Positions 318 to 37,474 of a DNA stretch of 64,000 nt are shown one piece after another. The stretch comes from Haloterrigena sp. KLK7 (GTDB lineage Archaea; Halobacteriota; Halobacteria; Halobacteriales; Natrialbaceae). The notes under the pieces were generated by a model that was not told where the DNA came from, ran no database searches, and saw only the letters and a list, made by a program, of their open reading frames with translations. The stretch lies in contig NZ_CP149787.1 of NCBI RefSeq assembly GCF_037914945.1, positions 310,001 through 374,000 of the forward strand, written 5' to 3'. Every line of letters starts with the position of its first letter. Position 1 is the stretch's first letter. The position numbers and the translations under genes were made by a program.

Positions 318-387
318 AGTATCAGTGCTATTAGCGTGCTCATAAAAGGAGTACCTCTCGTCTAGTTGCGGCGGTTCGAAGAGCCAA

Positions 388-980: not shown

Positions 981-988
981 TAAATTTC

Positions 989-1585: not shown

Positions 1586-1608
1586 CGGAGGAGGCGGACG
1601 CGCCGAGC

Positions 1609-3234
1609 TCAGCAGGCCAGCGCGACGAACCGGTTGATCGCGTCGTCGTCGCCGGCGACGATCAGGACGTCGGCCTCGCGGACGACGAATTCGGGACCGA
1701 GGTCGGTCAGCAGTTCGTCGTCCCGTTCGACGGCGACGACGGTACAGCCGGTCCGCGCCCGCAGGTCCACCTCACCGAGGCTCCGGCCCGCGATCTCTGG
1801 GGCGGTCGTCCGGACGAGTTCGAACTGCGTCTCGGGCGTGAGGATCTCCTCGTCCTCGATCAGCACGGACGCGAGCATCCGGCCGGTCACCGTCGACAGC
1901 GAGAGGACGTACTCCGCCCCGGCGCGGTAGAGCTTCGGGATGTTCTCCGTCTCGTTGGCCCGCGCGATGATCTCGATGTCCGGGACGACCTGTTTGAGGA
2001 CCAGCGTCGCGTAGATCGTCGTCGCGTCGTCGTTGACGGTGAGCAGGACCGAGCGAGCCTCGTCCACGCCGGCGGCCTCGAGGACGTCCTCGTCGGTGAC
2101 GCTGCCGGTGACGTCCACGCCGGGTCGGTCCGCGAGGTCGACGACGGTGGTCGAGACGCCGTTGCCCGACAGCGTCTCCACCGCGGTTCGGCCGACGACG
2201 CCGTAGCCGCCGACGATCACGTTTTCCGGCCGGTGCTCGAGCGTCGAGACCGTCCGGGCTTTCAGCTCCGTGAGGTCGTCCCGCCGTCCCGCGACGAGCA
2301 GGATCGTGTTGCCGTCGATTCGCCGGTCGGGATCGGGAACGGGGACGAAGTCGCCGTTGAACCACGCGCCGATGACGGTGACCCCCATCCGATCCCGGAT
2401 CCCCGACTCCGCGACCGTTCGACCGACGAGATCGCTGTCGTCCTGCACGAGCAGTTCGGTCACCGCGAGGTCCTCGCTGAGTTCGATCGTGTCCCGGAGT
2501 TCGGTCGACAGCGTCGTCGTCGCCTTCGTCGCGAGGCTCTGGCCGAGCACGCGCCGCGGGCGGACGGTCTCGTCGGCGCCCGCGTAGCGGTGGTAGCTCG
2601 CGACGTCCTCGTCCTCGACGACGCTGACGATCTCGAGGTCGCTCGAGAGCTCTCGAGCGGTGAGGATCACGACCGCGTTGGTCTCGTCGTCGACGTCGGT
2701 GACGAGCGCGCGGGCCTCGCCGGCGTTGGCCGCGCGCAGCGTCTCCTCCTCGTCGAGTTCGCCGTGGATCGCCTCGATCCCGTCCTTGGTGAGGTCGACG
2801 ACGAGCTCCGGATCGTCGTCGACGAAGACGTAGGGGACGTTCGCGGCCTCGAGTTCGTCCGCGAGGACGTCCGATCGCGGCGAGTAGCCGCAGATAACGA
2901 CGTGATCGGTGAGGTCGGTCGACTCCGGCGGTCGGTCCTGCAGCGCCTGCTGGAACAACGGGACGACCAGCAGCGGCAGGGCGAGAAAGACCAGCAGGAC
3001 CCCCGTGAGGTTCATCGCGACCACGAACAGATTCATCGCGGTGCTTTCCCAGGGCGCGTCGCCGCCGAAGCCGGCCGTCGTCAGCGACTCGATCACGGTC
3101 TGGATCGCCTGCGCGAACGTCTTGGTCTCCCCCTCGAAGGCGGCCATCCCCAGCTGATAGAGCCACGCGTAAACGACCACGAGCGCGAAGACGGCGCCCA
3201 GCGAGAGCGCGAGCCGGCGCCACCAGTAGTTCAT
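1609..3234 (-). CDS. Potassium channel / TrkA NAD-binding (RCK) protein
   Basis: This 541-residue protein has two N-terminal membrane helices (about residues 8-30 and 68-94) flanking a pore loop TTAGFGGDAPW at residues 52-62. That is the layout of a two-helix K+ channel, with T-A-G-F-G replacing the usual T-V-G-Y-G filter. Two RCK units follow. Rossmann loops lie at VVICGYSPRSDVL (about 112-124) and VIVGGYGVVGRTAV (about 340), each followed by a TrkA_C-type domain that typically binds a regulatory ligand. The fusion of pore and tandem RCK domains resembles MthK/GsuK-like channels, and ligand binding to the RCK ring would gate K+ flux, which matters in a salt-in haloarchaeon. It ends 23 bp from the convergent GrpB gene. 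Ion selectivity is inferred from the filter only. Confidence 0.88.
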   Translation of the reverse strand: MNYWWRRLALSLGAVFALVVVYAWLYQLGMAAFEGETKTFAQAIQTVIESLTTAGFGGDAPWESTAMNLFVVAMNLTGVLLVFLALPLLVVPLFQQALQDRPPESTDLTDHVVICGYSPRSDVLADELEAANVPYVFVDDDPELVVDLTKDGIEAIHGELDEEETLRAANAGEARALVTDVDDETNAVVILTARELSSDLEIVSVVEDEDVASYHRYAGADETVRPRRVLGQSLATKATTTLSTELRDTIELSEDLAVTELLVQDDSDLVGRTVAESGIRDRMGVTVIGAWFNGDFVPVPDPDRRIDGNTILLVAGRRDDLTELKARTVSTLEHRPENVIVGGYGVVGRTAVETLSGNGVSTTVVDLADRPGVDVTGSVTDEDVLEAAGVDEARSVLLTVNDDATTIYATLVLKQVVPDIEIIARANETENIPKLYRAGAEYVLSLSTVTGRMLASVLIEDEEILTPETQFELVRTTAPEIAGRSLGEVDLRARTGCTVVAVERDDELLTDLGPEFVVREADVLIVAGDDDAINRFVALAC

Positions 3235-3350
3235 TGGCGCATCGTGCCCGTTGTGCCCCTATGTAACTTCTCAACTTTCTCCGTATCCGTCTAGTGCCCG
3301 TCACGAGGCGGGCTCACGCTCGAAGGCGACTCGGACGGTTCCCGGCCGGG

Positions 3351-4500
3351 GATTGCCACGAAGGCAAGGCATACCCGACGTCAGGGGCATCGGACACACA
3401 TGAACCATCGACGGCTCGGTTCGACCGGACGCGACGTTTCGGAGGTCGGCCTCGGCACCTGGAACATCGGCGGCGATTGGGGCGACGTCGACGACGAGAC
3501 CGGCCGCGACGTCGTTCGCGCCGCCCTCGAGGCCGATATCGACTTCATCGACACGGCGGACGTCTACGGCGACGGTCGCAGCGAACGCCACATCGGGCAC
3601 GTCCTCGACGAGCGCGACGCCCACGACGACGTCTTCGTCGCGACGAAGGCCGGCCGCCGACTCGAGCCCCACGAGGCCGAGCGCTACGACTACGAACACC
3701 TCGCCGAGTTCGTCGAGCGCAGTCAGGAGTACCTCAACGAGGACACGCTGGACCTCCTGCAACTGCACTGCCCGCCGACCGAGGCCTACTACCAGCCCGA
3801 GACGTTCGATGCGCTCGAGCGGCTCAAAGCGGAGGGGGAGATCGCCCACGCGGGCGTCAGCGTCGAGAAGGTCGAGGAGGCGCTGAAGGCCATCGAGTAC
3901 GACGTCGTCGAGACGGTCCAGATCATCTTCAACCCGTTCCGCCAGCGCCCGAACGAGCTGTTCTTCGAACGGGCCGAGAAGAACGATATCGGCGTCATCG
4001 TCCGCGTCCCCTACGCGTCTGGACTGCTGACGGGCGCGCTCGAGCGCGACCAGGAGTTCGCCGAGGACGACCACCGCAACTTCAACCGCGAGGGCGAGGC
4101 CTTCGACGTCGGCGAGACGTTCGCGGGCGTCCCCTACGAGACCGGCCACGACGCCGTCGAGGCGCTCGAGCCCCACGTCCCCGACGACCTGACGATAGCC
4201 GAGTTCACGCTGCGCTGGATCCTCGACCACGAGGCCGTCTCGACGGTCATTCCGGGCACGACATCGCCGGAGCACGTCCGCTCGAACGCCGCGGTCTCGG
4301 AGCTCGACCCGCTCTCGAATCGGGTCCACGGCGCGGCGCGCGACGTCTACGAGGAGTACGTCGCGGAGCACGTCCACCACCGCTGGTAACGCCGCGAACT
4401 CCACGCGGATTCCGTATCCGGTCGTGTCCGCTGACGGTTCGCGGAGTGTTTTTCACGCTCGAAAACGTATAGCTAACCGATATGTCCGTCTCGCTCGAGG
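3351..4500 (+). repeat. Segmental duplication, right copy (unit B)
   Basis: This is the complete copy of the duplicated segment, with an intact aldo/keto reductase, the spacer that follows it (containing ttccgtatccggtcgtg) and the first codons of the 52-residue gene at 4482. It pairs with unit A at 388-980. Inside the reductase, CCACGAGGCCG occurs at 3669-3679 and 4227-4237; these are the probable endpoints of the deletion seen in unit A. Confidence 0.85.
3400..4389 (+). CDS. Aldo/keto reductase (intact copy)
   Basis: This 329-residue TIM-barrel oxidoreductase shows the AKR tetrad: Asp51 and Tyr56 in FIDTADVYGDGRSE, Lys83 in VATKAGRR and His123 in LLQLHCP. The C-terminal cofactor segment reads VIPGTTSPEHVRSNAA, the usual place for NADP(H) phosphate contacts. 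The enzyme should reduce aldehydes or ketones with NAD(P)H in the cytoplasm; the substrate is unknown. It is the intact member of a duplicated pair whose other copy (435-914) has a 186-codon internal deletion. A 52-residue small gene follows 92 bp downstream and is part of the duplicated block. Confidence 0.92.
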   Translation: MNHRRLGSTGRDVSEVGLGTWNIGGDWGDVDDETGRDVVRAALEADIDFIDTADVYGDGRSERHIGHVLDERDAHDDVFVATKAGRRLEPHEAERYDYEHLAEFVERSQEYLNEDTLDLLQLHCPPTEAYYQPETFDALERLKAEGEIAHAGVSVEKVEEALKAIEYDVVETVQIIFNPFRQRPNELFFERAEKNDIGVIVRVPYASGLLTGALERDQEFAEDDHRNFNREGEAFDVGETFAGVPYETGHDAVEALEPHVPDDLTIAEFTLRWILDHEAVSTVIPGTTSPEHVRSNAAVSELDPLSNRVHGAARDVYEEYVAEHVHHRW

Positions 4501-4640
4501 CGTACTACGGCGCGATATCGTCGGAGACCGCGACCGAACTCGAGACGATGGTCTCCGAGCGGCGATCCCGCCGTTCGAGCGATCGACGCGACCGAGTGGG
4601 ACGGATCGCGGCCATCGTGGATGCGGAGACCGCGGACTGA
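4482..4640 (+). CDS. Small hypothetical protein (52 aa)
   Basis: The frame from ATG 4482 to TGA 4638-4640 encodes MSVSLEAYYGAISSETATEL and continues as a charged, arginine-rich helix ending in IVDAETAD. I do not recognise a family. Two things support it as a gene: it sits in the 300-bp gap between two co-directional reductase genes, and its upstream spacer and first six codons were duplicated with the reductase (MPVSLE at 961, where the frame then diverges). There is no cysteine, signal or membrane segment. It could be translationally coupled to the reductase, but the 92-bp spacing argues for its own start signals. Confidence 0.5.
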   Translation: MSVSLEAYYGAISSETATELETMVSERRSRRSSDRRDRVGRIAAIVDAETAD

Positions 4641-4697
4641 ACCTCGCGGTTCGCCGGTTCCCCATCCGTTTTGCCGCTCGCGCCGGAATCGGCGCCC

Positions 4698-5702
4698 ATG
4701 GAGTACACGACGCTCGGCAACACGGGCACGACCGTCTCGCAACTGTGTTTCGGCACCTGGCGCTTCGCGAAGGAGAGCGACGGGACCGTCGAGACCGACC
4801 GCGAAGAGGCCCACGACCTGCTCGACGCAGCGTGGGAGCAGGGGATCAACTTCATCGACACCGCGAACGTCTACGGCGATCCCAACGGCACCAGCGAGGA
4901 GTGGATCGGCGAGTGGCTCGCGGACCGCGATATCCACCGCGAGGACGTCGTCATCGCCTCGAAGGTCTACTTCCCCTTCGACGGCCGGGGCGAACCCGGA
5001 CCGAACGACTCCGGGCTCGGCCGCAAGCACATCCGCGCCCAGATCGAGGGCACCTTGGAGCGCCTCGGCACTGACTACCTCGACCTGTACTACATCCACC
5101 GCTGGGACGAGGACACGCCCATCAGGGAGACCATGCAGACCCTCACCGAACTCGTCCGCGAGGGGAAGGTCCGCTACCTCGGCGCCTCCACGATGGCCGC
5201 CTGGCAGCTGACGAAGGCGCTGTGGACCAGCGACGTCGAGGGGCTCGAGCGGTTCGACGTCACCCAGCCGATGGTCAACGCGGCCCAGTACGACGAGGTC
5301 GGCGACTACCTCGACGTCTGCGCCGATCAGGACCTCGCCGTCTGCCCCTACTCGCCGCTGGCGGGCGGCTTCCTGACCGGCAAGTACGACCGCGCCGAGG
5401 ACGGCTCCGTCGAGGCGCCGGACGGCTCTCGAGGGAGCCTCGACGAGATGTTCGACGAGTACTACGCGACCGAGCAGGCCTGGGACGTCCTCGAGGCCGT
5501 CGAGTCCGTCGCGAGCGAGGTCGACGCCACGCCGGCGCAGGTCTCGCTGCGCTGGCTGATGGACCAGGATCGCTTCACGTGCGTGCCGATCGTCGGCGCG
5601 CGAACGCCCGAGCAACTCGAGGAGAACGTCGGCGCGGTCGAGGTCGACCTCAGCGACGAGCAGTTCGAGCGGATCGACGCGGCCCGCGGGAGCGACGAGT
5701 AA
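4698..5702 (+). CDS. Aldo/keto reductase, second type
   Basis: This 334-residue member of the aldo/keto reductase superfamily resembles the Tas/YajO and Kv-beta-like branch. The tetrad residues are visible: Asp54 and Tyr59 in FIDTANVYGDPNG, Lys89 in VIASKVYFPFDG and His134 in DLYYIHRWDEDTP. An insertion after the lysine (GEPGPNDSGLGRKHIRAQIE) and the segment CPYSPLAGGFLTGKYDR are typical of this branch. The C-terminal VGARTPEQLEENVGAVEVDL fits the NADP-binding end. The start at ATG 4698 (MEYTTLGNTG) matches the family's usual N-terminus. It differs clearly from the reductase at 3400, so it is not a third copy of the duplication. Confidence 0.92.
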   Translation: MEYTTLGNTGTTVSQLCFGTWRFAKESDGTVETDREEAHDLLDAAWEQGINFIDTANVYGDPNGTSEEWIGEWLADRDIHREDVVIASKVYFPFDGRGEPGPNDSGLGRKHIRAQIEGTLERLGTDYLDLYYIHRWDEDTPIRETMQTLTELVREGKVRYLGASTMAAWQLTKALWTSDVEGLERFDVTQPMVNAAQYDEVGDYLDVCADQDLAVCPYSPLAGGFLTGKYDRAEDGSVEAPDGSRGSLDEMFDEYYATEQAWDVLEAVESVASEVDATPAQVSLRWLMDQDRFTCVPIVGARTPEQLEENVGAVEVDLSDEQFERIDAARGSDE

Positions 5703-5816
5703 GCTACGTAACTCGGTCGTATCGCGGTCTACTCGTCGTTCAGATCTTTTCGTCGCTCCGAACTCGCCGAGGGGAGAACGTACGACCGAGAGCGTCTCGC
5801 ACCGCCAGTGCCGGCG

Positions 5817-7268
5817 TCAGAACAGCGACCCGGTCAGGACGAGCGCGTCGACGAGCACCGCGACGAGAACGGCCCCGAGGAAGGCGTTGGAGGCGTGGAA
5901 CGAGCGGAACGCCGCGGCCTCGGTCTGCTCGAAGTGGAGTCTGACGGCGGTCCAGAGGAAGATCCCGCCGAAGACGACCACCGTCGCGGCGTACAGCGCG
6001 CCGAGATCGGTGATCCAGGCCAGCGCGATCGTGCTCACGAGCGTCGCCGCGAGGTAGTAGATGATCTGCTTTCGCGTCTCGGTCTCGCCGCGGACGACGG
6101 GCATCATCGGGAAGCCGCCGCGGGCGTAGTCGTCCTTGTACGCCAGCGCGAGGTTGTAGAAGTGCGCCGGCGTCCAGAGGAAGATCACGCCCGCGAGCGC
6201 CAGCCCCGGGAGCCCGATCTCGTTGGTGACCGCGGCCCAGCCGATCAGCGCCGGGAGCGCCCCCGCGGCCCCGCCGATGACCGTGTTCTGGACGGTGTTG
6301 GGCTTGAGGACGAGGGTGTAGACGACGCTGTAGAAGATGATCGCCGCGAGGCCGAGCGCGGCCGCCAGCCGGTTGATCGTCAGGAAGATCCCGAGCGAGG
6401 CGACGGTCAACAGCCCGCCGAAGGCCAGCGCGTTGGGCACGGGAATCAGGTCGGTCGCCAGCGGGCGATCCGCCGTGCGGGACATCTTCCGATCGACGTC
6501 GCGCTCTAAGACGTGGTTGAAGGTCCCCGAGGCGCCGATGGCGAGGACGCCGCCGCCGAGCGTCGCCAGAATCGTATAGCGGTCGAGCGAGGGGCCGGCG
6601 GCCAGCGCCATCCCCGCGGCGGCGACCAGACAGAGCAGCCACATCAGGCGCGGCTTCATCATCTTGAAGTACGCGAAGGCGGTGAGCCGGGCCCGAGCGA
6701 GTCCGCCCTCGGGCAGGGTGCGACCGCCGGCGGCGGCCGTTCCCTCGCCGTCGACGTCGTCGGTGAGCGGTTCAGGATCGATCGCGTCGTCGTCGCTCCC
6801 GGTGGCGAGCTCGAGATCCCAGGCGAGCGCGAGGACGATCGTCCCGAAGATCACGAGCCCGAGCGCGAGATGCAGGCCGGGCACGATCGCCTCGGGTCCG
6901 GACATCGCCGTCGCGGCGCCGACGCCGACCTGAACCACGTAGAGAACGGCGCCGACGACGATCGCCGTCGTGACGCGCCGCGAGACGTCGCCGAGGACGG
7001 CGGTGACGGCCGTCGCGGCGACGAGCAGGCCGACGACGACGGCCGCGATCCGGTGGCCCCACGCGACGACGAGTTGCGTCTGACTCAGCGGATCGACGGG
7101 CGCGTGACAGGTCGGCCAGGTCGAACACGCCGCGGTCGCGTTCGTCAGCGAGGTCGTCGCGCCGACGATCAGGAGGAGGTAAACGCCCAGCGCGGTCGCT
7201 GCCAGCAGTGCGGAGAAGCGCTGTCGAGTGCCGATCGGACGGGGAAACGACGCTGATTCGGTTACCAC
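5817..7268 (-). CDS. ctaB: Heme A synthase-like / protoheme IX farnesyltransferase (heme O synthase) fusion
   Basis: This 483-residue polytopic membrane protein makes heme O, and probably helps make heme A, for terminal oxidases. Residues 1 to about 160 hold four helices resembling half of CtaA/Cox15, with a conserved pair of cysteines in ACSTWPTCHAP and histidines in AWGHRIAA and GLHLALG that could ligate heme. After an acidic linker (about 165-190), a UbiA-type prenyltransferase domain begins with MMKPRLMWLL and contains the Asp-rich site NHVLERDVDRKMSRTADRPL, the LWTPAHFYNLAL motif of CtaB and a YARGGFPMMP loop. The CtaA-like half fused to CtaB is known from other haloarchaea. A divergent gene for a small zinc-finger membrane protein starts about 130-170 bp away and may share its promoter region. 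Confidence 0.93.
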   Translation of the reverse strand: MVTESASFPRPIGTRQRFSALLAATALGVYLLLIVGATTSLTNATAACSTWPTCHAPVDPLSQTQLVVAWGHRIAAVVVGLLVAATAVTAVLGDVSRRVTTAIVVGAVLYVVQVGVGAATAMSGPEAIVPGLHLALGLVIFGTIVLALAWDLELATGSDDDAIDPEPLTDDVDGEGTAAAGGRTLPEGGLARARLTAFAYFKMMKPRLMWLLCLVAAAGMALAAGPSLDRYTILATLGGGVLAIGASGTFNHVLERDVDRKMSRTADRPLATDLIPVPNALAFGGLLTVASLGIFLTINRLAAALGLAAIIFYSVVYTLVLKPNTVQNTVIGGAAGALPALIGWAAVTNEIGLPGLALAGVIFLWTPAHFYNLALAYKDDYARGGFPMMPVVRGETETRKQIIYYLAATLVSTIALAWITDLGALYAATVVVFGGIFLWTAVRLHFEQTEAAAFRSFHASNAFLGAVLVAVLVDALVLTGSLF

Positions 7269-7402
7269 GGCTATTCTCGTCTACACCGTTCGACTCCGCG
7301 TATTTATCGTTCCCGCTTCGTCCCGCTTCTCGGGAATCGACGCCCGGGCGGACTCCCCCTCGACTTCGCTTCGATTCCCTCGAGTCGCGATCACTGAAAC
7401 GA

Positions 7403-7756
7403 ATGCGGAGGTCGATAAACGACGGTCGCGTAGGAGACGGTGTGCAACCGACCGATCGATCGCGGCCGACCGCGGACACCGACGGCGGGACCGCGAGTCA
7501 CCCGGCGGCCGACCTCCGGGGCGACGACCCGACCGCGCGGTGTCCCTACTGCGATCGGCCGTTTCGCGAGCGACGACTCGAGGCGCTCCACCGCGGCTTC
7601 GACCACCCCGATCGGCTCTCCGACCGGGAGCGGGCCGCCTTCGAGCGGGCCTACCTCGAGGAGCAGACGGTGGTCCGCCGGTATCGGTTGCTCGCGCTCG
7701 GCGCGGTGGTTCTGGGGTACTTCTGTTTTCTGTTCGTCTACGCGCTCGTTCTCTGA
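7403..7756 (+). CDS. Small zinc-finger membrane protein (DUF7410-like)
   Basis: The protein has a CPYCDRPFRERRLEALHRGF segment that looks like a single C2H2-type zinc finger (Cys-x2-Cys, then His in LHRG and FDH). It is followed by DRLSDRERAAFERAY and one C-terminal membrane helix (LLALGAVVLGYFCFLFVYAL). This layout matches a haloarchaeal family usually found beside ctaB, which I believe is DUF7410. The start is uncertain: ATG 7403 (MRRSIND) or GTG 7442 (VQPTDRSRP); the finger begins well after both. The stop is 3 bp from the convergent stop of a DUF7111-like fragment. A short degraded copy of this gene's middle part lies at about 11090-11166. Confidence 0.7.
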   Translation: MRRSINDGRVGDGVQPTDRSRPTADTDGGTASHPAADLRGDDPTARCPYCDRPFRERRLEALHRGFDHPDRLSDRERAAFERAYLEEQTVVRRYRLLALGAVVLGYFCFLFVYALVL

Positions 7757-7759
7757 TGG

Positions 7760-7855
7760 TCACATCCCCATCTCGTCGGCCGTCGCCGGGAGGGGAAGCT
7801 CGTGGGGTGAGACGCCGAGCAACTCCGCGGCGTGGTTCAGGGCTACGGAGACCAT
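7760..7855 (-). pseudogene. 3' fragment of a DUF7111-like gene
   Basis: Read leftwards, this gives ALNHAAELLGVSPHELPLPA, TADEMGM and then a stop. It matches the last 28 residues of the intact gene at 11169-11480 (ALDHAAELLGVSPHELPVPA...EDMGM). Upstream of this the homology stops abruptly near 7855 and unrelated sequence begins. The fragment lies directly beside the intact zinc-finger membrane gene, in the same convergent arrangement as the intact pair would have. It marks the left edge of the 7.86-11.1 kb islet. Confidence 0.8.
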
Positions 7856-8060
7856 CGACGAGACGGACGGAGCGATGTTCGGACGGATCCGTGCCGATCC
7901 GAGCACCGCCGGCGCATAGCGGAACGCATCGGTTAGACTGGTCTTTGACGCGACTCGCGAAGACAACGAGCTGGGGTTCCGAACCGATTCCACAAAACTA
8001 ACGCAAATAGTGAGACGCTAGCAGTGAGTTCCTAGACAACTCTCGAAACGAGACGGATAG

Positions 8061-9032
8061 TTAGCATCCATCTCCGAACGTCCCATTGAGGGCCATCGAG
8101 TGATTGGCATAGTAGGAGTAGAGGTTTTTCGGCGCGACATATCTGCCGCCGTAGTACCCAGCAGGGCCGTTCGACTCGATACGGTTAGTCTCGTGATCCG
8201 TTGTAAATCTCAAATCTTGCCGGTCATAGATGAGCTCGCCATCGAGCCAGTACCGGATGACACCATCGGGGTTTGCCACGCCATCGTCGATCGTATTCAC
8301 ACAGATGTAATACTCGAATTCGTACCACCGACCTGGGACGAGCTCGGCTTGTCGTACGGTGTAGGGATTACTATCGATCAGGTAGTCGTGGTCTTGGTTT
8401 TGATCCATGTGGTAGGTATATGAGAGGAGATGGAACGGACCGTCCGGATCGGTTTCCCGAGTACTGACATAGAGTCGATTGCTCCACCCATTAGTACCAT
8501 CGGGGACCCCACCGCCGGCACTTCCCTCACCGAAGGCCATTGCACAGTTCCAGATCCGACTGTGTGTTCGATCTCCCATCTCCCAGTTCGAGTTCAAAGC
8601 GAGATTGACACGGCCGTTGAGTTCGAGTAGCCCGCCATCGAAGTCGTAGTGCGTACTCAGCCCCCAATGCTGGTCTTCACGAACTCGTAGCTGGAGAGCG
8701 GTATCTCCGTCGTGTGTCGGGCTAGAAACGATTTCGAGGTTATCGCGCTCGCCGTTCGACATCCGATACATGTCCTCCCAGTTGTCGTACTCGCCGTAAT
8801 CGAGATGAACGATGTCGTCCGGCCGGTTACAGCCGCCTCCAGATGCACTGTCTACGTCTGGCGCTGCCGTACCCTCCGCTCCGATTCCCGCCACTCCAAT
8901 CAAACTACTTACACCCAAGAGACTGCCTGTACGTACCACCTGACGACGAGACATACCAGCATCACGTGTCGTCTCGTCTACACCGTTTCTATGATCTTCC
9001 GGGACTGTCCCAGTAGTGTGATCTTTTTTCAT
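8061..9032 (-). CDS. Secreted polysaccharide-lyase-like protein (Tat substrate, concanavalin-like fold)
   Basis: The 323-residue protein has a Tat signal SRRQVVRTGSLLGVSSLIGV at about residues 28-47. The mature part is rich in aromatic residues and shows a pattern of PL14/PL20-type polysaccharide lyases: DYGEYDNWEDMYRMSNG, then HWGLSTHYDFDGG, LLSYTYHMDQN, RWYEFEYYICVN and DGVIRYWLDGELIYDRQDL. These are strands of a beta-jelly roll with the 'lots of W/Y plus DGEL' hallmark. It would cleave or bind an anionic polysaccharide outside the cell. Its base composition is markedly lower in GC than the neighbours. A polysaccharide deacetylase gene lies on the same strand about 380 bp upstream. The assignment to PL14 rather than another concanavalin-like family is a judgement from motifs. 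Confidence 0.65.
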   Translation of the reverse strand: MKKDHTTGTVPEDHRNGVDETTRDAGMSRRQVVRTGSLLGVSSLIGVAGIGAEGTAAPDVDSASGGGCNRPDDIVHLDYGEYDNWEDMYRMSNGERDNLEIVSSPTHDGDTALQLRVREDQHWGLSTHYDFDGGLLELNGRVNLALNSNWEMGDRTHSRIWNCAMAFGEGSAGGGVPDGTNGWSNRLYVSTRETDPDGPFHLLSYTYHMDQNQDHDYLIDSNPYTVRQAELVPGRWYEFEYYICVNTIDDGVANPDGVIRYWLDGELIYDRQDLRFTTDHETNRIESNGPAGYYGGRYVAPKNLYSYYANHSMALNGTFGDGC

Positions 9033-9413
9033 ACGCGCTTGGTGAGATAAGATATTATGAGATAGTAATCCACCAACTATAGCGAAGTAGGTAGTATTTT
9101 ATCGGATAGAATCCTTGTTTATGATATCTATATTACTGATATTAGATGGGTTATGCGATGAGCGGGCGCAAAACCTCGCCGTTTACCGCGGGGAGGATGT
9201 CAACGGTCCCTAGAGGAGTTTCCTAACGGAGTGAGTCCAGGGAGTGTCTTCGTACTCAGCAAGGACTCGCTCGAGTCGGCGTCTCTCAGTCGATCCTCGC
9301 TCGAAGAACGTATTACTAGCTGATAGGTCACAGTAGTTCCCTCTCGAATCGCTATCCAGAAGCGGTCTCTGAGAGTCGGTGAGATCCGGTCTGAAACCGG
9401 GTTTCGAGGCCGA
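9033..9413. other. AT-rich intergenic stretch with insertion-element end remnant
   Basis: About 380 bp without a gene lie between the two secreted proteins. The left 130 bp are very AT-rich and probably hold the promoter of the lyase-like gene. The middle contains the element end described at 9160-9205; the right part shows nothing recognisable. Confidence 0.5.
9160..9205 (+). mobile_element. Right-end remnant of an IS200/IS605-type element
   Basis: The string cgcaaaacctcgccgttta then ccgcggggaggatgtcaac closely resembles the hairpin that closes the right end of haloarchaeal IS200/IS605 elements (CCTCGCCGTTTA / CGGCGGGGAGG). One arm carries a mismatch. No transposase gene lies on either side, so only the end is left. 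This is recognition by eye, without an IS database comparison. Confidence 0.45.
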
Positions 9414-10457
9414 CTAAGAGAGTCTAGTAATCGCATCTCGAAGCGTCAGCACTTCGATGCCGCGATCGTCGATCATTTCGAGCGTGGTACGAATCTCCTC
9501 GGGAGAGACGACATCTTTCTCCGTGTGAGCAGCAAAGATGCCGAGGCTCCCGTTCCGTGCGATTTCGTCGAGATCGTCTTCAATAACGTCTCGAGAGGTC
9601 TCCTCGATGAAATAGCCACGCTTGGTCTCGAAGGGGTCAAAGTCAATCGGTGAGTTGACACGTCCTCTGGTCACATAGGCGTTAGCAACACCGATATAGT
9701 ATTGTTTAGCGTGTCGGCGAACCCATTCGCCAAATGCATCGTACGGCGCGATCAAGGTATCGACAGTGAATCCCTCCTCTTCGAGAATAGCCTTCGAGTC
9801 ACCGAGAAAGTGGTTCATTTCGCTGCTGGTATAGCGTTCGACGGTCGACTCAGCGTCGAACGATTGGTTGATCTCCTCATCGAGTTGAATATAGGATCCG
9901 GTACCGTCCGTTCCACCGCCGAGAACGGTACGAGTAACCGATTTCTCTCCGTCCGTGATCTCGAGTGATTTCTCAGCGGGGTCAGCATGAGTAGTTCGAG
10001 TCGGATAGATCCGGTCATCTCCGGGAACGATATCCTCAGTGAGGCGGGCTTGATCGAGATCAGCGTGACTGGTCGTATGAGATGCAATCTCCCAACCGTG
10101 ACTCTGGAGAATACTGAGTTGATCGACGTTCATCCATCGTACTCCGTCGTCTCGATCTCGGGTCAGTGAATCTGTAACGACGCCAATCGTTGCAGGAGCG
10201 TCAAACTCCTGATGAACCGGAAATGCTTGCGTATAGTCCTGGAGAGGCGCATCATCATAGGTGATCACCACGGCACCGTTCTCACCGTGCCTACTGAACT
10301 GATCCTGATCGGAGGGCTCAGACGCCGTATCACTCGAGTCGTCGTCCTTACTCTCAGCGTTTGTCCCGGATTCGACGTCGAATCCGGACCGAGAACACCC
10401 TGCCATGAGCGCGGAGAATGATACCCCTGTAGCAGCGATGAATTTACGTCGGTCCAT
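9414..10457 (-). CDS. Polysaccharide deacetylase lipoprotein (NodB-like)
   Basis: This 347-residue exported lipoprotein starts MDRRKFIAATGVSFSALMAG with a lipobox cysteine at residue 21, followed by an acidic Ser/Asp linker. The NodB catalytic motifs are visible: VVITYDDAP (Asp68, Asp69; motif 1) and ASHTTSHADL (His127, His131; motif 2, H-x3-H). The late motifs APYDAFG and GIFAAHTEKD fit motifs 3 and 5. Between motifs 2 and 3 sits an insertion of about 90 residues (GDDRIYPTRTTHADPAEKSL onward) that looks like a separate beta-rich module. It should remove acetyl groups from an extracellular polysaccharide. Codon use is lower in GC than in flanking chromosomal genes, as for the lyase-like gene next to it, which suggests that both came with one islet. 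Confidence 0.85.
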   Translation of the reverse strand: MDRRKFIAATGVSFSALMAGCSRSGFDVESGTNAESKDDDSSDTASEPSDQDQFSRHGENGAVVITYDDAPLQDYTQAFPVHQEFDAPATIGVVTDSLTRDRDDGVRWMNVDQLSILQSHGWEIASHTTSHADLDQARLTEDIVPGDDRIYPTRTTHADPAEKSLEITDGEKSVTRTVLGGGTDGTGSYIQLDEEINQSFDAESTVERYTSSEMNHFLGDSKAILEEEGFTVDTLIAPYDAFGEWVRRHAKQYYIGVANAYVTRGRVNSPIDFDPFETKRGYFIEETSRDVIEDDLDEIARNGSLGIFAAHTEKDVVSPEEIRTTLEMIDDRGIEVLTLRDAITRLS

Positions 10458-11085
10458 ATTTTAAATAAAGTGCGTGCCGTATTTCAATGTGGTATGCAAT
10501 ATAAGCGATCCTCCCCTGTTCATGTCATTCGATTAGAGTTAGATCACATATATCTTCTGGAATCTCCAGGCCAGTTTTTTAGTTTATACAATATACTAGT
10601 GATATAAGATATTGTATTAAGTCCTGAGAGGGTGTAACTCGAGGGATCCTCCTTCAGCGAAACTACTTCTGGAAACTGAGTTTCAATAGGATCCTCTCCA
10701 CGAAAACGCGAAGAACGGTGTGTGCCGATCGATATTCGGCGGGACTGGCATGTGACCGGGAGGACTGCAGGACGGATCGGTCGAGTCACCGTCGTTGATT
10801 CGCCCGAGCATCGCTGGACGTCCGAGACACCCAGTCTCGCCAGCGTCGCGACCTCGGTCGATGATCGGTCGCAGGTATTCCCCCTCGTCGCGCTTGAAGC
10901 CCGCAGGAACGTGACCGACCATTTTCCTTCGCGGTGTGCACGTCACTGTCCGGTCTCTCTGAACAGCAGTCGAGCGTGACTCCCTCGAACCGCACCGAAC
11001 GCCCGACGCCGACCGTTCCGAGAGCGGTCGCTTCGTATCCGCACCGTCGACAATGCGACGCGAACACGCTCCCTGTAGCGACGAT
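10458..11085. other. Islet right flank, no intact gene
   Basis: The left 200 bp are AT-rich (around 10480-10620, with ttagatcacatatatc and tatacaatatactagtgata) and probably carry the promoter of the deacetylase gene. The right 400 bp return to high GC and hold only broken reading frames, one of which resembles a zinc-ribbon protein (see 10786-11067). Confidence 0.45.
10786..11067 (-). pseudogene. Degraded small zinc-ribbon-like ORF
   Basis: Read leftwards from 11067 the frame gives MFASHCRRCGYEATALGTVG and then VTLDCCSERPDSDVHT. This resembles small haloarchaeal zinc-finger proteins that carry two CPxCG-like knuckles, but the second knuckle is damaged (DCCSERP). A neighbouring frame (10946 leftwards) reads MVGHVPAGFKRDEGEYLRPI, which looks more protein-like than the in-frame continuation and suggests a frameshift. 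It lies at the right edge of the islet. No function can be assigned and it may be chance coding. Confidence 0.25.
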
Positions 11086-11089
11086 TCGG

Positions 11090-11166
11090 AGTGATCCGAG
11101 CGGCGTTGGGCGCTATCCTCGACCGCCCCGAGCGCCTCTCCGCGGACGAACGGGAGGCGTCGAGGC
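11090..11166 (+). pseudogene. Fragment of the zinc-finger membrane protein gene (DUF7410-like)
   Basis: The frame ILDRPERLSADEREASRR aligns with FDHPDRLSDRERAAFERAY of the intact gene at 7403-7756. The zinc-finger part before it and the membrane helix after it are missing, and the fragment runs straight into the convergent DUF7111-like gene. It is the right-hand counterpart of the fragment at 7760-7855 and helps define the duplicated borders of the islet. Confidence 0.6.
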
Positions 11167-11168
11167 GA

Positions 11169-11480
11169 TCACATCCCCATGTCCTCGGCCGCCGCCGGCA
11201 CCGGCAGCTCGTGGGGCGAGACGCCGAGCAGCTCCGCGGCGTGGTCTAAGGCCATGTCGAACCCGTAGTAGCGCTCGAGTTCGTCGCCGTCGACCGTCGG
11301 TCGCACCTTCAGCATGGCGTACCCCTCGATGTTCTGGGCGATCGCGGCGGTCGTCCCGACCAGGGCCGTCCCGGCGTCGTCGGTGACCTCGAACGCGATG
11401 CGGCGTTCCGACTCGGTCTCCGTGTACGTCGCCCTGATACCGTTTTCCGCGGCCGTCCGATCGTCGGTATCGTCGGTCAT
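11169..11480 (-). CDS. DUF7111-like conserved haloarchaeal protein
   Basis: The 103-residue protein starts at the ATG at 11478-11480 (MTDDTDDRTAAENGIRATYT). It contains a conserved core AAIAQNIEGYAMLKVRPTVD and a C-terminal GFDMALDHAAELLGVSPHEL ending in DMGM. The sequence is characteristic of a Halobacteria-only family, which I believe is DUF7111; its function is unknown. There is no signal or membrane segment, so it is probably cytoplasmic. A 28-codon fragment of a second copy lies at 7760-7855. Some 129 bp separate it from the divergent DUF3267 gene. Confidence 0.75.
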   Translation of the reverse strand: MTDDTDDRTAAENGIRATYTETESERRIAFEVTDDAGTALVGTTAAIAQNIEGYAMLKVRPTVDGDELERYYGFDMALDHAAELLGVSPHELPVPAAAEDMGM

Positions 11481-11609
11481 GGCCGATACTCGCGGGTCGA
11501 GGACCGGGAAGCTATCGGTTTCCCTCGCGGTCGCGCGCAAAACAGGACGTCGAATCGCTCGAGCGCGGGAACCGGTACCGATTTTTCGGTCCCGCGAGAG
11601 GATTCGGTC

Positions 11610-12539
11610 GTGAACCGGACGGAGCCTCGCAGGTCCCCGCAGCTGATCGCGACGTTCCGACGCACGCGGGCGGTCGCAGTCCAGTGGATCGTCGTCTCCG
11701 CGGTCGGTTTTTTCGGCTTCGCCTACCTGTTCGGCCGCGTCCGCGCGGCGATTCTCGGGACGTCCCTCGAGCCGATCGTCGTGCCGGTGTTCGCACCGCC
11801 GGACGCGCTGCTCTGGCTCGTCGCCTCGGTCGGCCTCGTCGCGCTCGTCGTGGTGCCCCACGAACTGCTCCACGGCGTCTTCATGGCCCGCTACGGCGGC
11901 GACGTCGGATACGGGATCGGCGTCTCCTACTTCGTCCTGCCGTACGCGTACGCGAAGACGGAGGGCGCGAGCTACGCGCGCGATCAGTTGCTCGTCGCCC
12001 TGTTGGCCCCGTTCGTCGGCATCACGGCCGTCGGGCTAGCGGCGATGTTCGTTTACCCGTCGCCGCTGGTGATCGTCCCGCTCGCGGCCAACGCCGCCGG
12101 CTCGATCGGCGACCTCTGGATGGCCGGCGTCCTCCTGCAGTACCCCGCGGACGTCCGCGTCGGCCCGCTCCCCGACGGCGACGCGCAGGGCTTCGGCGTC
12201 TACGGCTCGCGTTCGAACGCCGGCAGCGTCGGTCGCCGGCCGGGGATGCGGTTCCTGTCGCGGCTCGTCGCCGGTGCCGTCGGGACGCTGGCGCTGCTGG
12301 CGACCGCGCTCGTCGCGACGGTGTTCGGCTCGCTCGTCGTCGGCTCCGGGACCGTCGTGATCGGCGAGCCCGGCAGCCAGTGGTTCCTCTTTCGCCACGA
12401 ACTCGATTCCCGCGCCGGAGCGGTCCTCCTCGAGATCGGCGCCGTCGCGGCGGTCGCCCTCGCGGCCGTCGGCGGGCTCGCGTGGGCGGGGCTCCGGGAA
12501 GGCTATCGCGCGGTCGCGGCCGATCGGTCCGAGCGATGA
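11610..12539 (+). CDS. DUF3267 membrane metalloprotease-like protein
   Basis: This 309-residue polytopic protein begins at a GTG (VNRTEPRRSPQLIATFRR). It has six or so membrane helices, and within the third lies VVPHELLHGVFMARYGGD, an HExxH-like zinc motif in the form H-E-L-L-H. The later segment NAAGSIGDLWMAGVLL occupies the place where DUF3267 and site-2-protease-like families provide a third zinc ligand (Asp). Such proteins are predicted intramembrane metallopeptidases. The C-terminus (GLREGYRAVAADRSER) is cytoplasmic and charged. A PadR-type regulator follows 50 bp downstream on the same strand and may be co-transcribed. No substrate can be inferred. Confidence 0.82.
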   Translation: MNRTEPRRSPQLIATFRRTRAVAVQWIVVSAVGFFGFAYLFGRVRAAILGTSLEPIVVPVFAPPDALLWLVASVGLVALVVVPHELLHGVFMARYGGDVGYGIGVSYFVLPYAYAKTEGASYARDQLLVALLAPFVGITAVGLAAMFVYPSPLVIVPLAANAAGSIGDLWMAGVLLQYPADVRVGPLPDGDAQGFGVYGSRSNAGSVGRRPGMRFLSRLVAGAVGTLALLATALVATVFGSLVVGSGTVVIGEPGSQWFLFRHELDSRAGAVLLEIGAVAAVALAAVGGLAWAGLREGYRAVAADRSER

Positions 12540-12589
12540 GTCGCCCGCGAACCGTAACGTTCGAGCGGTCGCGCCGCGGGAACCGGAAC

Positions 12590-12889
12590 ATGACCAAGTG
12601 GCTCCGAAGCGGTCGCCGCCGCGACATCTGTTTCCTGCTGGCCGCCGCCGAGGACGGCGAACTCCGCGGCCAGCAGCTGAAATCGCGACTCGAGTCCCAC
12701 TACGACGACCACCTCGATCCGCAGTCGTTCTACGGCTCGCTGTCGGCGCTCGAGGACGCGGGGTTCGTCGAGAAGCGAACCGAGGGGCTGTACGACGTCT
12801 ACGCGTTCACCGAGGCCGGCGAGCGACGGGTCCGAGAGCACTACGACTGGGTGCGGGAGTGTCTCGAGGGCGACTCGGGACCCGAATAG
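12590..12889 (+). CDS. PadR family transcriptional regulator
   Basis: The 99-residue winged-helix protein starts at ATG 12590 (MTKWLRSGRRRDICFLLAAA). The PadR core is visible: ELRGQQLKSRLESHYDDHLD as the first helices with the HTH, SFYGSLSALEDAGFVEKRTE as recognition helix and wing start, and LYDVYAFTEAGERRVREHYD as the wing and dimerisation region. Its length fits minimal PadR proteins lacking the long C-terminal coiled coil. Such regulators bind palindromic sites near their own or neighbouring genes; the adjacent DUF3267 gene is a possible target. It could be regulated by a small ligand, which is unknown. Confidence 0.85.
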   Translation: MTKWLRSGRRRDICFLLAAAEDGELRGQQLKSRLESHYDDHLDPQSFYGSLSALEDAGFVEKRTEGLYDVYAFTEAGERRVREHYDWVRECLEGDSGPE

Positions 12890-13425
12890 GCCGCCTCGGA
12901 GGTCCCGGGCGGAGAACCGCGCACCGCTGTCGCGTCCCGTGAAGCGATACCGTCGACTCGTCGCGAAGCGGTCGTCGTTCCCCGCGGATCTGACTGCCGT
13001 GCCGAGTACTGTCGGCGGATTCGATTCCGTCGTTCGTCCCGCAGTGCCACTGGATACCGACTGCTGCGGTGGGGATTCGCCGACCGGCGATTGCCGCCGA
13101 GACGATCGTCCGAGAGCCGTCGTTATCGACCCCTTCATTTCAGTGTCCGTGACTGCGTAAAACCTATCTTGTAAATCAAATCTAAGCTAGATTTAATTCA
13201 CCTAGTCCGAAGTATAGACTCTGTGGGAAAAACAGGTAAGGCGAACTGATCCGTCGGATCGGCCTTCAACGGGTTTCTCTGATACTGTAGCGGCGGTAGT
13301 CAATTCATTAGAAATCACGGACCTCGATCGATATACTAGATTCAGCACTGGATCAGTGTCTGAATATTTTTACTAATTCGTAGAGAAGGTTTATGGTTCG
13401 GTAGAATACTCCGCCAAATACTGAA
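12890..13425. other. Intergenic region
   Basis: The first 260 bp are GC-rich without a convincing gene. From about 13140 the DNA turns AT-rich (aaatcaaatctaagctag, atttttactaattcg), which is probably the promoter and leader region of the membrane regulator at 13426. Confidence 0.5.
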
Positions 13426-14073
13426 ATGGTCCGAAACCCAGGCCGTCACTCCCTCCCTTCGGTCGATCGCTCCGGCGGTTCGCAGCCCGACGAGCCCTGC
13501 GACCTCTCCCAGGACGAGATCTTCCATATCCTCCAGACGAATCGCAGACGGGACGTCATCGTCTATCTGTTGGACAAAGAGGATCCCATCAAGATGCGCG
13601 ATATCGCCGAGATCGTCGCGGCGAAAGAGAACGAGACGACCGTCGCGAACCTGACGTCCGCCCAGCGCCAGCGTGTCTACATTCCGCTGTACCAGAATCA
13701 CCTCCCGAAACTGGACGAGGAGGGGATCATCGAGTACGACAAACCTCGCGGAATCGTCCGACCGACCGATCGGTTGGAAATCTTTCGCCCGTATCTCGAC
13801 GCAGCGAACCCGAACGACAGATCCGACCGACCGGACGCTGAGCCCGATCGGTTCCCGAACGCGCGTGCCATGGACGACGCTGCTACCGACTACTACGTCG
13901 CGGCGGTCGGCGTGAGCGCCGGTCTGCTAACGGCCTCCGCGTCCGGCCTGCTTCCGATCCCCGGACTGGCTCTCGCGACGATAACCAACGCGCTGTTCGT
14001 ACTGGCTATCATCGCAGCGAATCGCTCCGTCTCACTCGCAGACGGCACCGAGGACGAGGCTCGTCCGCTCTAG
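13426..14073 (+). CDS. Membrane-anchored HTH regulator (DUF7344-like)
   Basis: The 215-residue protein combines an N-terminal winged-helix domain (DEIFHILQTNRRRDVIVYLL, MRDIAEIVAAKENETTV, RQRVYIPLYQNHLPKLDEEG, IIEYDKPRGIVRPT) with two C-terminal membrane helices (about 160-180 and 182-198). This architecture is the haloarchaeal family I know as DUF7344. It should bind DNA from the membrane and may respond to envelope signals. The closest relative in the window is at 60473-61081, with the same RQRVYIPLYQxHLxKLDExG core. Its upstream region is AT-rich. No adjacent target gene stands out; the next gene is convergent. Confidence 0.75.
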   Translation: MVRNPGRHSLPSVDRSGGSQPDEPCDLSQDEIFHILQTNRRRDVIVYLLDKEDPIKMRDIAEIVAAKENETTVANLTSAQRQRVYIPLYQNHLPKLDEEGIIEYDKPRGIVRPTDRLEIFRPYLDAANPNDRSDRPDAEPDRFPNARAMDDAATDYYVAAVGVSAGLLTASASGLLPIPGLALATITNALFVLAIIAANRSVSLADGTEDEARPL

Positions 14074-14106
14074 TACCCACCGAGGGTGATCCGGGACGCT
14101 CGAGCG

Positions 14107-15252
14107 TTACTCCTCGAGCAACTGGTCGCCGATCGTGTTCCGCAGCACCTCACTGGTGCCCTCGTAGATCTCGTTGAGTTTGGCGTCGCGGTAGAACCGC
14201 TGGGCGGCGAAGTCCTTGGTATAGCCGTAGCCGCCGTGGATCTGGATGCCCTCGTTTGCCACCTCGCGGCTCACCTCGGAGGCGTACAGTTTGGCCTGCG
14301 AGGCGTCCTTGATGTAGTTCTCGTCGCGGATCTTCTTGTCTGCGGCCTTGTGCATGAGCATCTTGGCGGCCTGAATCTTCGTGTCCATGTCGGCCAGCTT
14401 GTGCTTGATCGACTGGAACTCGCCGATCGGCTGGCCGAACTGCTCGCGCTCGTTGGCGTAGTCGCGGGCCTCCTCGAAGGCCGCGCGGGCGATGCCGACG
14501 CCGCGGGCGGCGATGGTGATCCGGCCGCCGTTGAGCGTCTTCAGCGCGTGGACGAAGCCCTCGCCCTCCTCGCCGAGCCGTCGTGATTCGGGAATGCGCA
14601 ACTCGTCGAAGCGAAGTTCGGCGGTCGGACAGCCCTTGTCGCCGAGCTTCTCCTCCGTGCCCTCGACGATGAAGCCGTCGTCCTCTTCGGGACGGACGAT
14701 GAAGGACGAGATACCCTTGTTGCCCGCGTCGGGATCGGTCTTCGCGAAGAGGGTGACCGTATCCGCGACGGAGCCGTTGGAGATCCAGAGCTTGCCGCCG
14801 TCGATCACGTACTCGTCGCCCTCTTTCTCCGCCCGCGTCTCCATTGCGGGAACGTCGCTTCCGGCCCCCGCCTCCGAGAGCGCGAACGCGCCGATGTCCC
14901 GCCCCTCCGCGAGCGGCGTCAGATACTCCTCCTTCTGGGACTCGTCGCCGAACTCGTAGAGCATGTTCCCCGCCAGCGACGTGTGGGCGGCGACGATCGT
15001 CCCGAGGCCGCCCGAACCCCGCGAGATCTCCTCGAGGCCGATCGCGTAGGAGTGGTAGTCCAGCCCGGCGCCGCCGTACTCTTCGGGGAACGGCATCCCC
15101 ATCAGCCCGAGCTCGGCCATCTCGCTGACGAGATCGGCGGGGAACTCGTCCTCGTGGTCGATCTCGTCGGCGATGGGAACGACCTCCTCGTCGACGAACT
15201 CCGACACCATGTCGCGAATCTGTTGCTGCTCGGCTGAGAGCGCAAAGTCCAT
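14107..15252 (-). CDS. Acyl-CoA dehydrogenase
   Basis: This 381-residue flavoprotein catalyses the first, FAD-dependent step of fatty-acid beta-oxidation, passing electrons to ETF. It shows the family order: N-terminal helical domain (MDFALSAEQQQIRDMVSEFV), the middle beta domain with FALSEAGAGSDVPAMETRAE and GGKLWISNG, and the C-terminal domain with REQFGQPIGEFQSIKHKLAD, QIHGGYGYTKDF and the catalytic base in NEIYEGTSEVLRNTI (Glu of YEG). Its length is typical of the short/medium-chain type. An acyl-CoA ligase lies just upstream on the same strand, and the two genes share a string (TCACTCTTTC on the plus strand) about 30 bp before their start codons. Confidence 0.95.
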   Translation of the reverse strand: MDFALSAEQQQIRDMVSEFVDEEVVPIADEIDHEDEFPADLVSEMAELGLMGMPFPEEYGGAGLDYHSYAIGLEEISRGSGGLGTIVAAHTSLAGNMLYEFGDESQKEEYLTPLAEGRDIGAFALSEAGAGSDVPAMETRAEKEGDEYVIDGGKLWISNGSVADTVTLFAKTDPDAGNKGISSFIVRPEEDDGFIVEGTEEKLGDKGCPTAELRFDELRIPESRRLGEEGEGFVHALKTLNGGRITIAARGVGIARAAFEEARDYANEREQFGQPIGEFQSIKHKLADMDTKIQAAKMLMHKAADKKIRDENYIKDASQAKLYASEVSREVANEGIQIHGGYGYTKDFAAQRFYRDAKLNEIYEGTSEVLRNTIGDQLLEE

Positions 15253-15284
15253 AAACGATTATACGATTCCGTTCCCTTTATTGT

Positions 15285-15294
15285 TCACTCTTTC
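15285..15294 (-). promoter_or_regulatory. Shared upstream element of fatty-acid genes (copy 1)
   Basis: On the coding strand the string GAAAGAGTGA is followed by acaataaagg and ends 32 bp before the acyl-CoA dehydrogenase ATG. The same ten bases end 29 bp before the ATG of the acyl-CoA ligase at 17062. An ATTGTTC or GAACAAT half-site lies next to both copies. It could be an operator or a promoter element. Confidence 0.4.
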
Positions 15295-15409
15295 GTCTCG
15301 GGTGTGGACCAGTAGCACCCTCGGTGCCAGCAAAACGGGCTCTCGTCCGCGTGGTCGGTCGATGGTCGCGGTCTCCGCGTCTCGACGACCGAATCGGATC
15401 GCGGTCGTT

Positions 15410-17062
15410 TCAGTCGCGATCCGGCGCGGCGTCTTCGGGAACCTGTCCCTCGACGAGAGACTGCTCGGCGTACTCCTCGCGGATGTCCTTCTTCGAGAAC
15501 TTCCCCGTCGCCGTCTTGGGGACTTCCTCGATGAACTCGATCTCGTCCGGCAGCCACCACTTGGGATACTCGTCGGCGAGCAGGTCGTTGATTTCGGCGA
15601 CGATCGTCTCCCGATCGGCGCCCTCCGCGGGAACGATGAACGCGACCGGTCGCTCTTGCCAGCGCTCGTGGGGGACGCCGACGACGGCCGCCTCGGCGAC
15701 GTCGTCGTGAGCCATGATCGCGTTCTCGAGTTCGACCGACGAGATCCACTCGCCGCCGGACTTGATCACGTCCTTCTCCCGGTCGACGATCTTGATGTAG
15801 CCGTCCTCGTCGACGGTGACGACGTCACCGGTCTTGAGCCAGCCGTCCTCGAAGTCCGCTTCGTTGGCCTCGGGGCGCTTGAAGTACTCCTTGGTCACCC
15901 ACGGGCCACGGATCCACAGTTCACCGAACTCCCGTCCGTTCCAGGCGATCTCCTCGCCGTCGTCGTCGATGACCCTGAACTCGAGGCCGGGAACCACGAG
16001 TCCCTGCTTGCTGCGCTTTTCGACCTGCGTATCGTAGTCGGCGTTCCGCAGATCGGCTTTGAGGTGAGACACCGAGCCGATCGGTGCCATCTCGGTCATC
16101 CCCCAGGCGTGAAGCACTTCGACGCCCTGCGTGTCGAACCACTCGACCATCGATTTCGGCGCTGCCGACCCGCCGACGATCACGGTATCGAGCGTCGAGA
16201 GGTCCACCTGATTCTCCGAACAGTACTCCATCAGCCCGAGCCAGACGGTCGGAACGCCCGCGCTGATAGTCACACCCTCGTTTTCGATGAGGGTCGCGAG
16301 GTCTTCGGGGTCCGGAGATGGGCCGGGGAAGACCTGTTTGGAGCCGCCCGCCGTCGCCGTAAACGGCATCCCCCAGGCGTTGACGTGGAACATCGGTACG
16401 ACGGGCATGACGACGTCGTCGTCGGCCATCGGGATCCCCTGTGGCGTCTGGGACGCCATCGTGTGGCTCCAGAGCATCTGTTGGGTGTATTCGACGCCCT
16501 TCGGGTCGCCGGTCGTTCCCGAGGTGTAACACATCCCCGCGGGCTGTTCCTCGTCGACGTCGGGCCAGTCGTACTCGCTCTGGTGGCCCTCGATGAACGA
16601 CTCGTAGGGCGTCGCCTCGAGGTCGTCGGACTCCTCGCTTCCCATGACGACGAAGTCGACGTCGTCGAACTCGCCGTCGGCGTCGGCGACCGCGCCCGCG
16701 AGCTTCGGGGCGAGCGACTGATCGACGAAGATCAGTTCGTCGTCGGCGTCGTCGACGATATACTGAATGTGCGCGTCGGGGAGCAACGGATTGATCGTGT
16801 GGAGCTGGGCGCCGATCGACGGCACGGCGAAGTACGTCTCGAAGTGACGCGAGTGATTCCAGCAGAACGTCCCGACCCGATCGCCGCTCTCGATCCCGTA
16901 TTCGTCGAGGGCGTTCGCGAGCTGGCTCGTTCGATCCTCGTACTCGCCGTAGGTGTATCGCTGCATCCCGTCGTGATTTCGGGAGACGATCTCCGTATCA
17001 GCGTATAGCTTACTCGCACGCCACAAAAACGGTCGAAGTGTTTGGTCCGTTCCCGTCGGCAT
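15410..17062 (-). CDS. Long-chain acyl-CoA synthetase (AMP-binding)
   Basis: The 550-residue ligase activates fatty acids to acyl-CoA through an acyl-adenylate. Visible motifs are the phosphate-binding loop [18 protein letters not shown], the [13 protein letters not shown] helix, the adenine motif [12 protein letters not shown], the core [20 protein letters not shown] then [20 protein letters not shown], and the C-terminal catalytic lysine in [19 protein letters not shown] chose ATG 17062 ([20 protein letters not shown]) because the sequence upstream in frame is arginine/proline-rich and the intergenic AT-rich block lies just before it. It pairs with the acyl-CoA dehydrogenase downstream on the same strand, which supports fatty-acid catabolism. 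Confidence 0.95.
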
Positions 17063-17417
17063 ATTCACTACTATAATAATGAACAATACATCACTCTTTC
17101 CATACGGCTGTCGTCGGCGGCGCCGGACGGTTCGCGTTCGCGCGGGGCGGACTCGAGGGGCCGGTGGTAGCCGTCCGCCCGCCCTGACCGACGAGGACGA
17201 CGGCGGGGTACGCCGCGGCGTGGTCGGCGAAGCCGACGCGCTCCGGGGGCACTGGCGGCCGCTCCGGGCGGGATCGACGTCGCGGTCGAGCGCGTCGGGG
17301 AACACGACGTCCCGCGGGAGACCGGTCGACGCCGCGCTCACGCCGCGTCAGAGAATGACGCTCGTCATCGCTGCCGCGATGGTCGCGTCTACGGGACGGC
17401 GCGAGTCCGACAGTCCG
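17063..17417. other. Intergenic region
   Basis: The first 40 bp are AT-rich and carry the ligase promoter, including the element at 17091-17100. The remaining 310 bp are GC-rich. One minus-strand frame reads ERVGFADHAAAYPAVVLVG, which looks protein-like, but it has no start and no stop-free extension. It may be a gene remnant. Confidence 0.4.
17091..17100 (-). promoter_or_regulatory. Shared upstream element of fatty-acid genes (copy 2)
   Basis: GAAAGAGTGA on the coding strand, then tgtattgttcattattata, ends 29 bp before the acyl-CoA ligase ATG. It matches the element at 15285-15294 upstream of the acyl-CoA dehydrogenase. The AT-rich string after it is a likely TATA region. Confidence 0.4.
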
Positions 17418-18059: not shown

Positions 18060-18234
18060 GGTCGCCCTTGTCGGCGCGCCGGGAAACGAATTGCGTCGGG
18101 AGGTGCCGGGCCGCCGTCGTCTCGATTTCGACCCCACCGGAGACCGGGCTCGGGCGCCGATTCTCGCGTCGACCGGAAGAACACGCCGCGACCGGGGTGT
18201 TTTTCCCGAGAGAGGTCGAAAAGGACTCGAGTAG

Positions 18235-37435: not shown

Positions 37436-37474
37436 TCATCTCACTGTCAGATCCGGAGCGGACACCGTCGACCT

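Follow-up and report, generated by a model that had tools for sequence, protein, structure and literature searches.

The islet of 3.3 kb that separates the convergent DUF7410 zinc-finger and DUF7111 genes on the main contig of this haloarchaeal genome is very likely a decayed insertion of plasmid origin. It is bounded by a direct repeat of the DUF7111 3' end, congeners retain the empty site, remnants of plasmid genes lie at its opposite ends, and its polysaccharide-lyase-like gene was acquired horizontally. The nearest relatives at the locus are Haloterrigena. Coordinates refer to the window, which is the whole stretch of 64,000 nucleotides analysed here, positions 310001-374000 of that contig, and the features are collected in Table 1. 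Beyond what the earlier note had read from the same DNA, the analysis adds plasmid remnants at both ends of the islet and a clearer source.

Table 1 Features of the islet and of the genes that flank it, in window coordinates
Feature	Position	Strand	Basis
DUF7410 zinc-finger membrane gene, intact, native	7403..7756	+	Pfam PF24166; alignment with five congeners
Left repeat: last 28 codons of a second DUF7111 copy	7760..7843	-	86% repeat of 11169-11252; DUF7111 profile
RepH-type replication initiator remnant, joined in frame with the DUF7111 end	7838..7990	-	protein and DNA matches
Lyase gene plus flanks, 89% identity to a Natrinema plasmid of 881 kb	7998..9082		DNA match
Polysaccharide-lyase-like gene, predicted secreted, open	8061..9032	-	PF14099, 29.9 bits, exactly at cut-off; dN/dS 0.17
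Short motif common to many haloarchaea, likely IS200/IS605-type (tnpB) element end	9149..9207		order-wide matches
Polysaccharide deacetylase gene, open	9414..10457	-	PF01522; weak match to solved structure 6dq3
Small serine recombinase, remnant of the C-terminal part	10782..10996	-	46% over 70 aa to the recombinase of the genome's own contig C5
Possible 14-codon DUF7410 zinc-finger piece (tentative)	11118..11159	+	32/42 bases to Halopiger gene; profile negative
DUF7111 gene, intact; last 84 bp form the right repeat	11169..11480	-	PF23423, 148 bits

The interrupted gene pair

The earlier note had placed an intact zinc-finger gene and a 28-codon DUF7111 end to the left of the islet and an intact DUF7111-like gene to its right, and Pfam and profile matches bear out all three. 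In an alignment with five congeners the DUF7410 gene is native through its stop codon, its 3' end being identical to that of congener G003. At this left junction 3 bp separate the two stop codons, versus 75-97 bp between the coding ends in the five congeners. The left DUF7111 end is recognised as such by itself (profile E 2.6e-8) and was the only one of six small or overlapping open reading frames of the islet to exceed the Pfam cut-off. Direct repeats are present at both ends of the insert, with 72 of 84 bases the same (E 1.7e-23 against the window); when the same self-scan was run on 80 related loci with DUF7111, secondary matches were never better than about 4e-5 in any of them. An assembly artefact was rejected because the two copies of the DUF7111 end differ by 14%. 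A 40 bp DUF7111 repeat in another family genome (G093) was considered as a second example and likewise rejected, as equally good chance repeats occur among the 80 scanned loci.

Comparison with related genomes identifies the empty site, the pair being uninterrupted in 5 of 5 congeners. DUF7111 is found in 125 of 125 genomes of the family and DUF7410-like proteins in 74; in the 56 genomes in which the two lie within 5 kb of each other, the coding ends are 9-145 bp apart in 51 and more than 500 bp apart in five, the largest gap (3418 bp) being that of the window's genome. Among the 125 family genomes, this is the only one in which an insertion is accompanied by a partial duplicate of the pair. 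The earlier note had also raised the prospect of other cargo at the pair elsewhere, and four other family genomes (L156, L157, L158 and L159) indeed hold 0.6-2.3 kb of unrelated DNA in the same gap: a hydrolase-like gene in G093, an apparent remnant of the same kind in G095, a small cyclase-like gene in G130 (all named by eye from translations) and 0.6 kb without an obvious gene in G125. No plasmid genes and no duplicated junction were seen at these four pairs. We rejected the idea that insertions of this kind recur at the pair as at a hotspot: 5 of 56 pairs are interrupted, but the other four carry unrelated cargo with no duplicated end. As a separate observation, 16294 bp around DUF7111 are identical on the chromosome and on an 827 kb plasmid of Natronorubrum bangense (L009, L010).

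The occupied gaps of the four other genomes would suit a piecemeal growth of the islet, in which the neutral space separating the convergent genes gradually took up unrelated fragments; the end of the Natrinema-plasmid-like block at 9082 and the tnpB-type end between the two islet genes point the same way. We nevertheless regard this explanation as very unlikely, for it accounts neither for the 86% direct repeat that flanks the islet nor for the plasmid remnants at both of its outer ends.

Plasmid remnants at the islet ends

At the left edge, a single open frame of 77 codons runs through the DUF7111 end and the RepH remnant, which are almost contiguous. When eight RepH proteins were compared with the whole window, the best match fell on 7838-7990 (36.6 bits, E 1.7e-4) and the next reached 30.0 bits. 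The protein identity of the remnant is 44% over 45 aa with the RepH on contig C8 of congener G002, and 41% over 51 aa with the one on the genome's own contig C5; at the DNA level the matches are 84-85% over 40-43 bp. G021 and G091 likewise contain a short DNA match of this kind, in stretches that were not recognised as RepH; the one in G021 gave no RepH match. The 51-aa remnant alone found no match when compared with plasmids. These roughly 50 codons are all that the insert retains of a replication gene. At the right edge, three recombinases compared with the window gave their best match at 10782-10985 (E 2e-11; next place 0.01), and the DNA of this remnant is 73-76% identical to C5 and to contig C41 of G085.

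A DNA search within the genome itself also led from the islet edges to the 8187 bp contig C5, by two short matches. The left-edge match lies inside the gene of an 864-aa protein whose relatives include the main pHV2 protein and the RepH proteins of phages ChaoS9, phiCh1 and phiH. The right-edge match lies inside the gene of a serine recombinase of 243 aa, which has a Resolvase domain. The two remnants thus sit at opposite ends of the islet while intact relatives of both are found on C5, which argues for a plasmid origin. Both remnants are on the minus strand in the islet and their C5 relatives are divergent; given this different strand arrangement, the islet is not a plain copy of C5. Comparison of C5 with the DUF7111 end gave no match longer than 15 bp. 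No free relative with the full gene set was found, and subsets occur on C5 (RepH and recombinase) and on pHTUR02 (lyase, deacetylase and RepH). Taken by itself, C5 (L086, G000:C5, 1-8187) has the appearance of a RepH plasmid that also encodes a small serine recombinase and a ribbon-helix-helix protein. Contig C8 of a congener carries a RepH with 86% identity to the one on C5, and no overlap was found between the two ends of C5.

With the RepH-type haloarchaeal plasmids and plasmid-phages (pHV2, pHTUR03, ChaoS9, phiH and phiCh1), a type that includes C5, the islet has in common a left remnant that aligns with RepH of the C5 subtype. It differs from them in that it is chromosomal and keeps only about 50 RepH codons, and a replication function is not expected.

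The view of the earlier note that this is not a classical integrase site agrees with the searches, as none of the 14 matches to Phage_integrase (tyrosine integrase) in the genome falls in the window and no tRNA was found in 1-20000. The window also gave no Resolvase-domain match, and the islet lacks an integrase gene, the C-terminal piece of the small serine recombinase being the only such sequence. The view does not stand without reserve, since site-specific integration retains a small share of the probability. Here, the 3' end of DUF7111 would have served as the attachment site, the 84 bp brought by the element rebuilding the gene on the right and the native end being displaced to the left. 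Such a mechanism would account for much of the layout: the insert is indeed flanked by direct repeats of 84 bp from the 3' end of a gene, and a recombinase remnant lies within it. What makes this mechanism unlikely, besides the missing tyrosine integrase, is that relatives of the recombinase measure 243-254 aa, the size of resolvases, that the DUF7111 end has no second copy in the 80 related loci, and that a possible zinc-finger piece left of the intact DUF7111 gene is not predicted by it.

Composition and cargo of the islet

The islet is poor in GC (53% versus 67%; 0.533 in 7844-11096 versus 0.675 in 1-7403), and the lower GC had been stated in the earlier note. GC3 is reduced too, being 0.59 and 0.557 in the two islet genes versus 0.91-0.95 in CtaAB, DUF7111, DUF3267 and AKR and 0.82 in the zinc-finger gene. 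The two proteins, for which the note had likewise proposed activity on polysaccharides, match PF14099 (exactly at the cut-off) and PF01522; secretion is predicted from twin-arginine and lipobox-like starts, judged by eye.

The lyase gene and its flanks have their counterpart on a plasmid from Natrinema sp. SYSU A 869, in which the block is followed 1.8 kb downstream by a RepH end in the same orientation. Two further replicons, H. turkmenica pHTUR02 and contig C4 of congener G002, also have lyase homologues within about 5 kb of a RepH sequence. Both the 89% identity to a Natrinema plasmid near RepH and these further homologues near RepH argue for a plasmid source. The dS of the lyase gene is 0.315 to the Natrinema plasmid copy, 1.0 to congener G003 and 1.26 to another congener copy, whereas that of the flanking DUF7111 and zinc-finger genes is 0.22-0.24 to G003; the lyase gene was therefore gained horizontally. 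Its dN/dS values of 0.12-0.17 indicate that it has been kept by purifying selection, at least over the divergence from the Natrinema copy. A search of solved structures with the lyase gave no match. We also note that homologues of the islet lyase near a RepH sequence on three other replicons (L152 / L177, L128 / L178 and L129) form a recurrent link between enzyme and plasmid type.

The deacetylase has distant relatives only, the best plasmid match being 45%, and short DNA matches in the order-wide set of 293 genomes; pHTUR02 also bears a deacetylase (41% identity). The motif between the two genes is probably the end of an IS200/IS605-type element, judging from locus L171, which matches it and has an adjoining tnpB-like open reading frame.

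Origin of the repeat and mode of entry

According to the earlier note, a middle fragment of the zinc-finger gene stands to the right of the islet, and both sides keep the same convergent junction. The junction is clear on the left and tentative on the right. A nucleotide comparison aligned 11117-11160 with the zinc-finger gene of Halopiger (77% over 44 bases), and when 5294 overlapping 72-base segments were ranked, just one other distinct place scored better; the piece was not reported by a profile built from 24 zinc-finger proteins. Over its 42 bases, the identities are 29 to the window's own gene, 30 to that of congener G001 and 32 to that of Halopiger, and matches of 80-84% over 42-50 bases are likewise found in genomes without a detected zinc-finger gene, for example G077.

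The left 84 bp share 72 bases with the genome's own DUF7111 gene, 68-71 with those of four congeners and 65 with that of the fifth. The stretch is about equally far from the genome's own gene and from the congeners, and tests of codon pattern and phylogenetic states on so short a sequence did not point to one source. Were it native, a break at the pair might have been repaired by capture of plasmid DNA, with about 300 bp of native sequence being duplicated on the two sides, and the copies would then have decayed. Such a duplication yields the same geometry, is in keeping with a DUF7111-RepH joint without long homology, and finds some support in three states that the left copy has in common with the right copy against four congeners. 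We judge it improbable, however: the eight private changes of the left copy are distributed 3/0/5 over the codon positions, with none at the second (P ~0.03), and are conservative (P ~0.03), which weakly suggests that the copy was once part of a working gene, and the zinc-finger-like stretch is no nearer to the genome's own gene than to others.

In the explanation that we prefer, the incoming DNA would have borne RepH, the small serine recombinase, the lyase and the deacetylase, and would have become part of the chromosome in the space where DUF7410 and DUF7111 converge. Most likely it brought its own short copy of the end of the gene pair, where a single crossover would have added the incoming DNA and thereby created the direct repeat; the plasmid genes would later have degenerated, leaving fragments, and the two enzyme genes would have remained open, with purifying selection acting on the lyase. 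The two truncations are complementary, as would be expected if a captured segment had recombined through a single crossover, and the pieces may all have arrived in one event. For this course as a whole, a decayed RepH-type plasmid insertion with the homology step included, we consider the chances about even. The integration by homology put forward in the earlier note is accordingly borne out as regards the insertion and the partial second copy of the pair; homologous entry itself fits the layout and is the favoured route. Against our explanation speak the weak zinc-finger piece on the right, a strand layout unlike that of C5, the similar distance of the left 84 bp from the genome's own DUF7111 and from those of the congeners, the loss of about 70 bp of intergenic DNA, and the shortness of the RepH remnant together with its similar match in G021 and G091. 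The scarcity of DUF7111 in plasmid records weighs in the same direction: it occurs in only three, the RepH type is established for none of these, and no plasmid record carrying the DUF7410-DUF7111 pair was found. A more specific version, which we put forward tentatively and hold to be somewhat doubtful, is that a RepH plasmid acquired a stretch of about 300 bp, spanning the DUF7410-DUF7111 junction, from the chromosome of another haloarchaeon. This stretch would then have acted as a homing arm for integrase-free homologous entry into the chromosome of a related species, delivering the pair of polysaccharide-degradation genes.

Homology-facilitated illegitimate recombination has been described in bacteria (PMC5361080 and PMC3240628). 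The islet has in common with such additive integration by homology that foreign DNA is anchored at a conserved sequence and leaves gene pieces behind; it differs in being archaeal, old and decayed, with a homologous step that we infer. With integrase-driven archaeal elements (PMC8371274 and PMC11431627, the latter with passages on integrase-bearing elements at a tRNA), it shares an insert between direct repeats of a gene end. It departs from them in that neither an integrase nor a nearby tRNA was found and the target is the end of a protein-coding gene. We found no literature on DUF7111, and publications on integrated haloarchaeal plasmids, pHV2, RepH and island formation contained no description of the locus in their titles or the beginnings of their abstracts.

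By comparison with the empty site, the islet documents how plasmid-borne genes for sugar-polymer enzymes reach a haloarchaeal chromosome, and it illustrates in practice how a decayed insertion can be read from what it has left behind. If entry was indeed driven by homology, it would represent integrase-free island formation between haloarchaeal genera. Elsewhere in the window, the composition profile displays further GC dips (0.54-0.59) at 36501-38000, 42501-44500 and 59501-61000.
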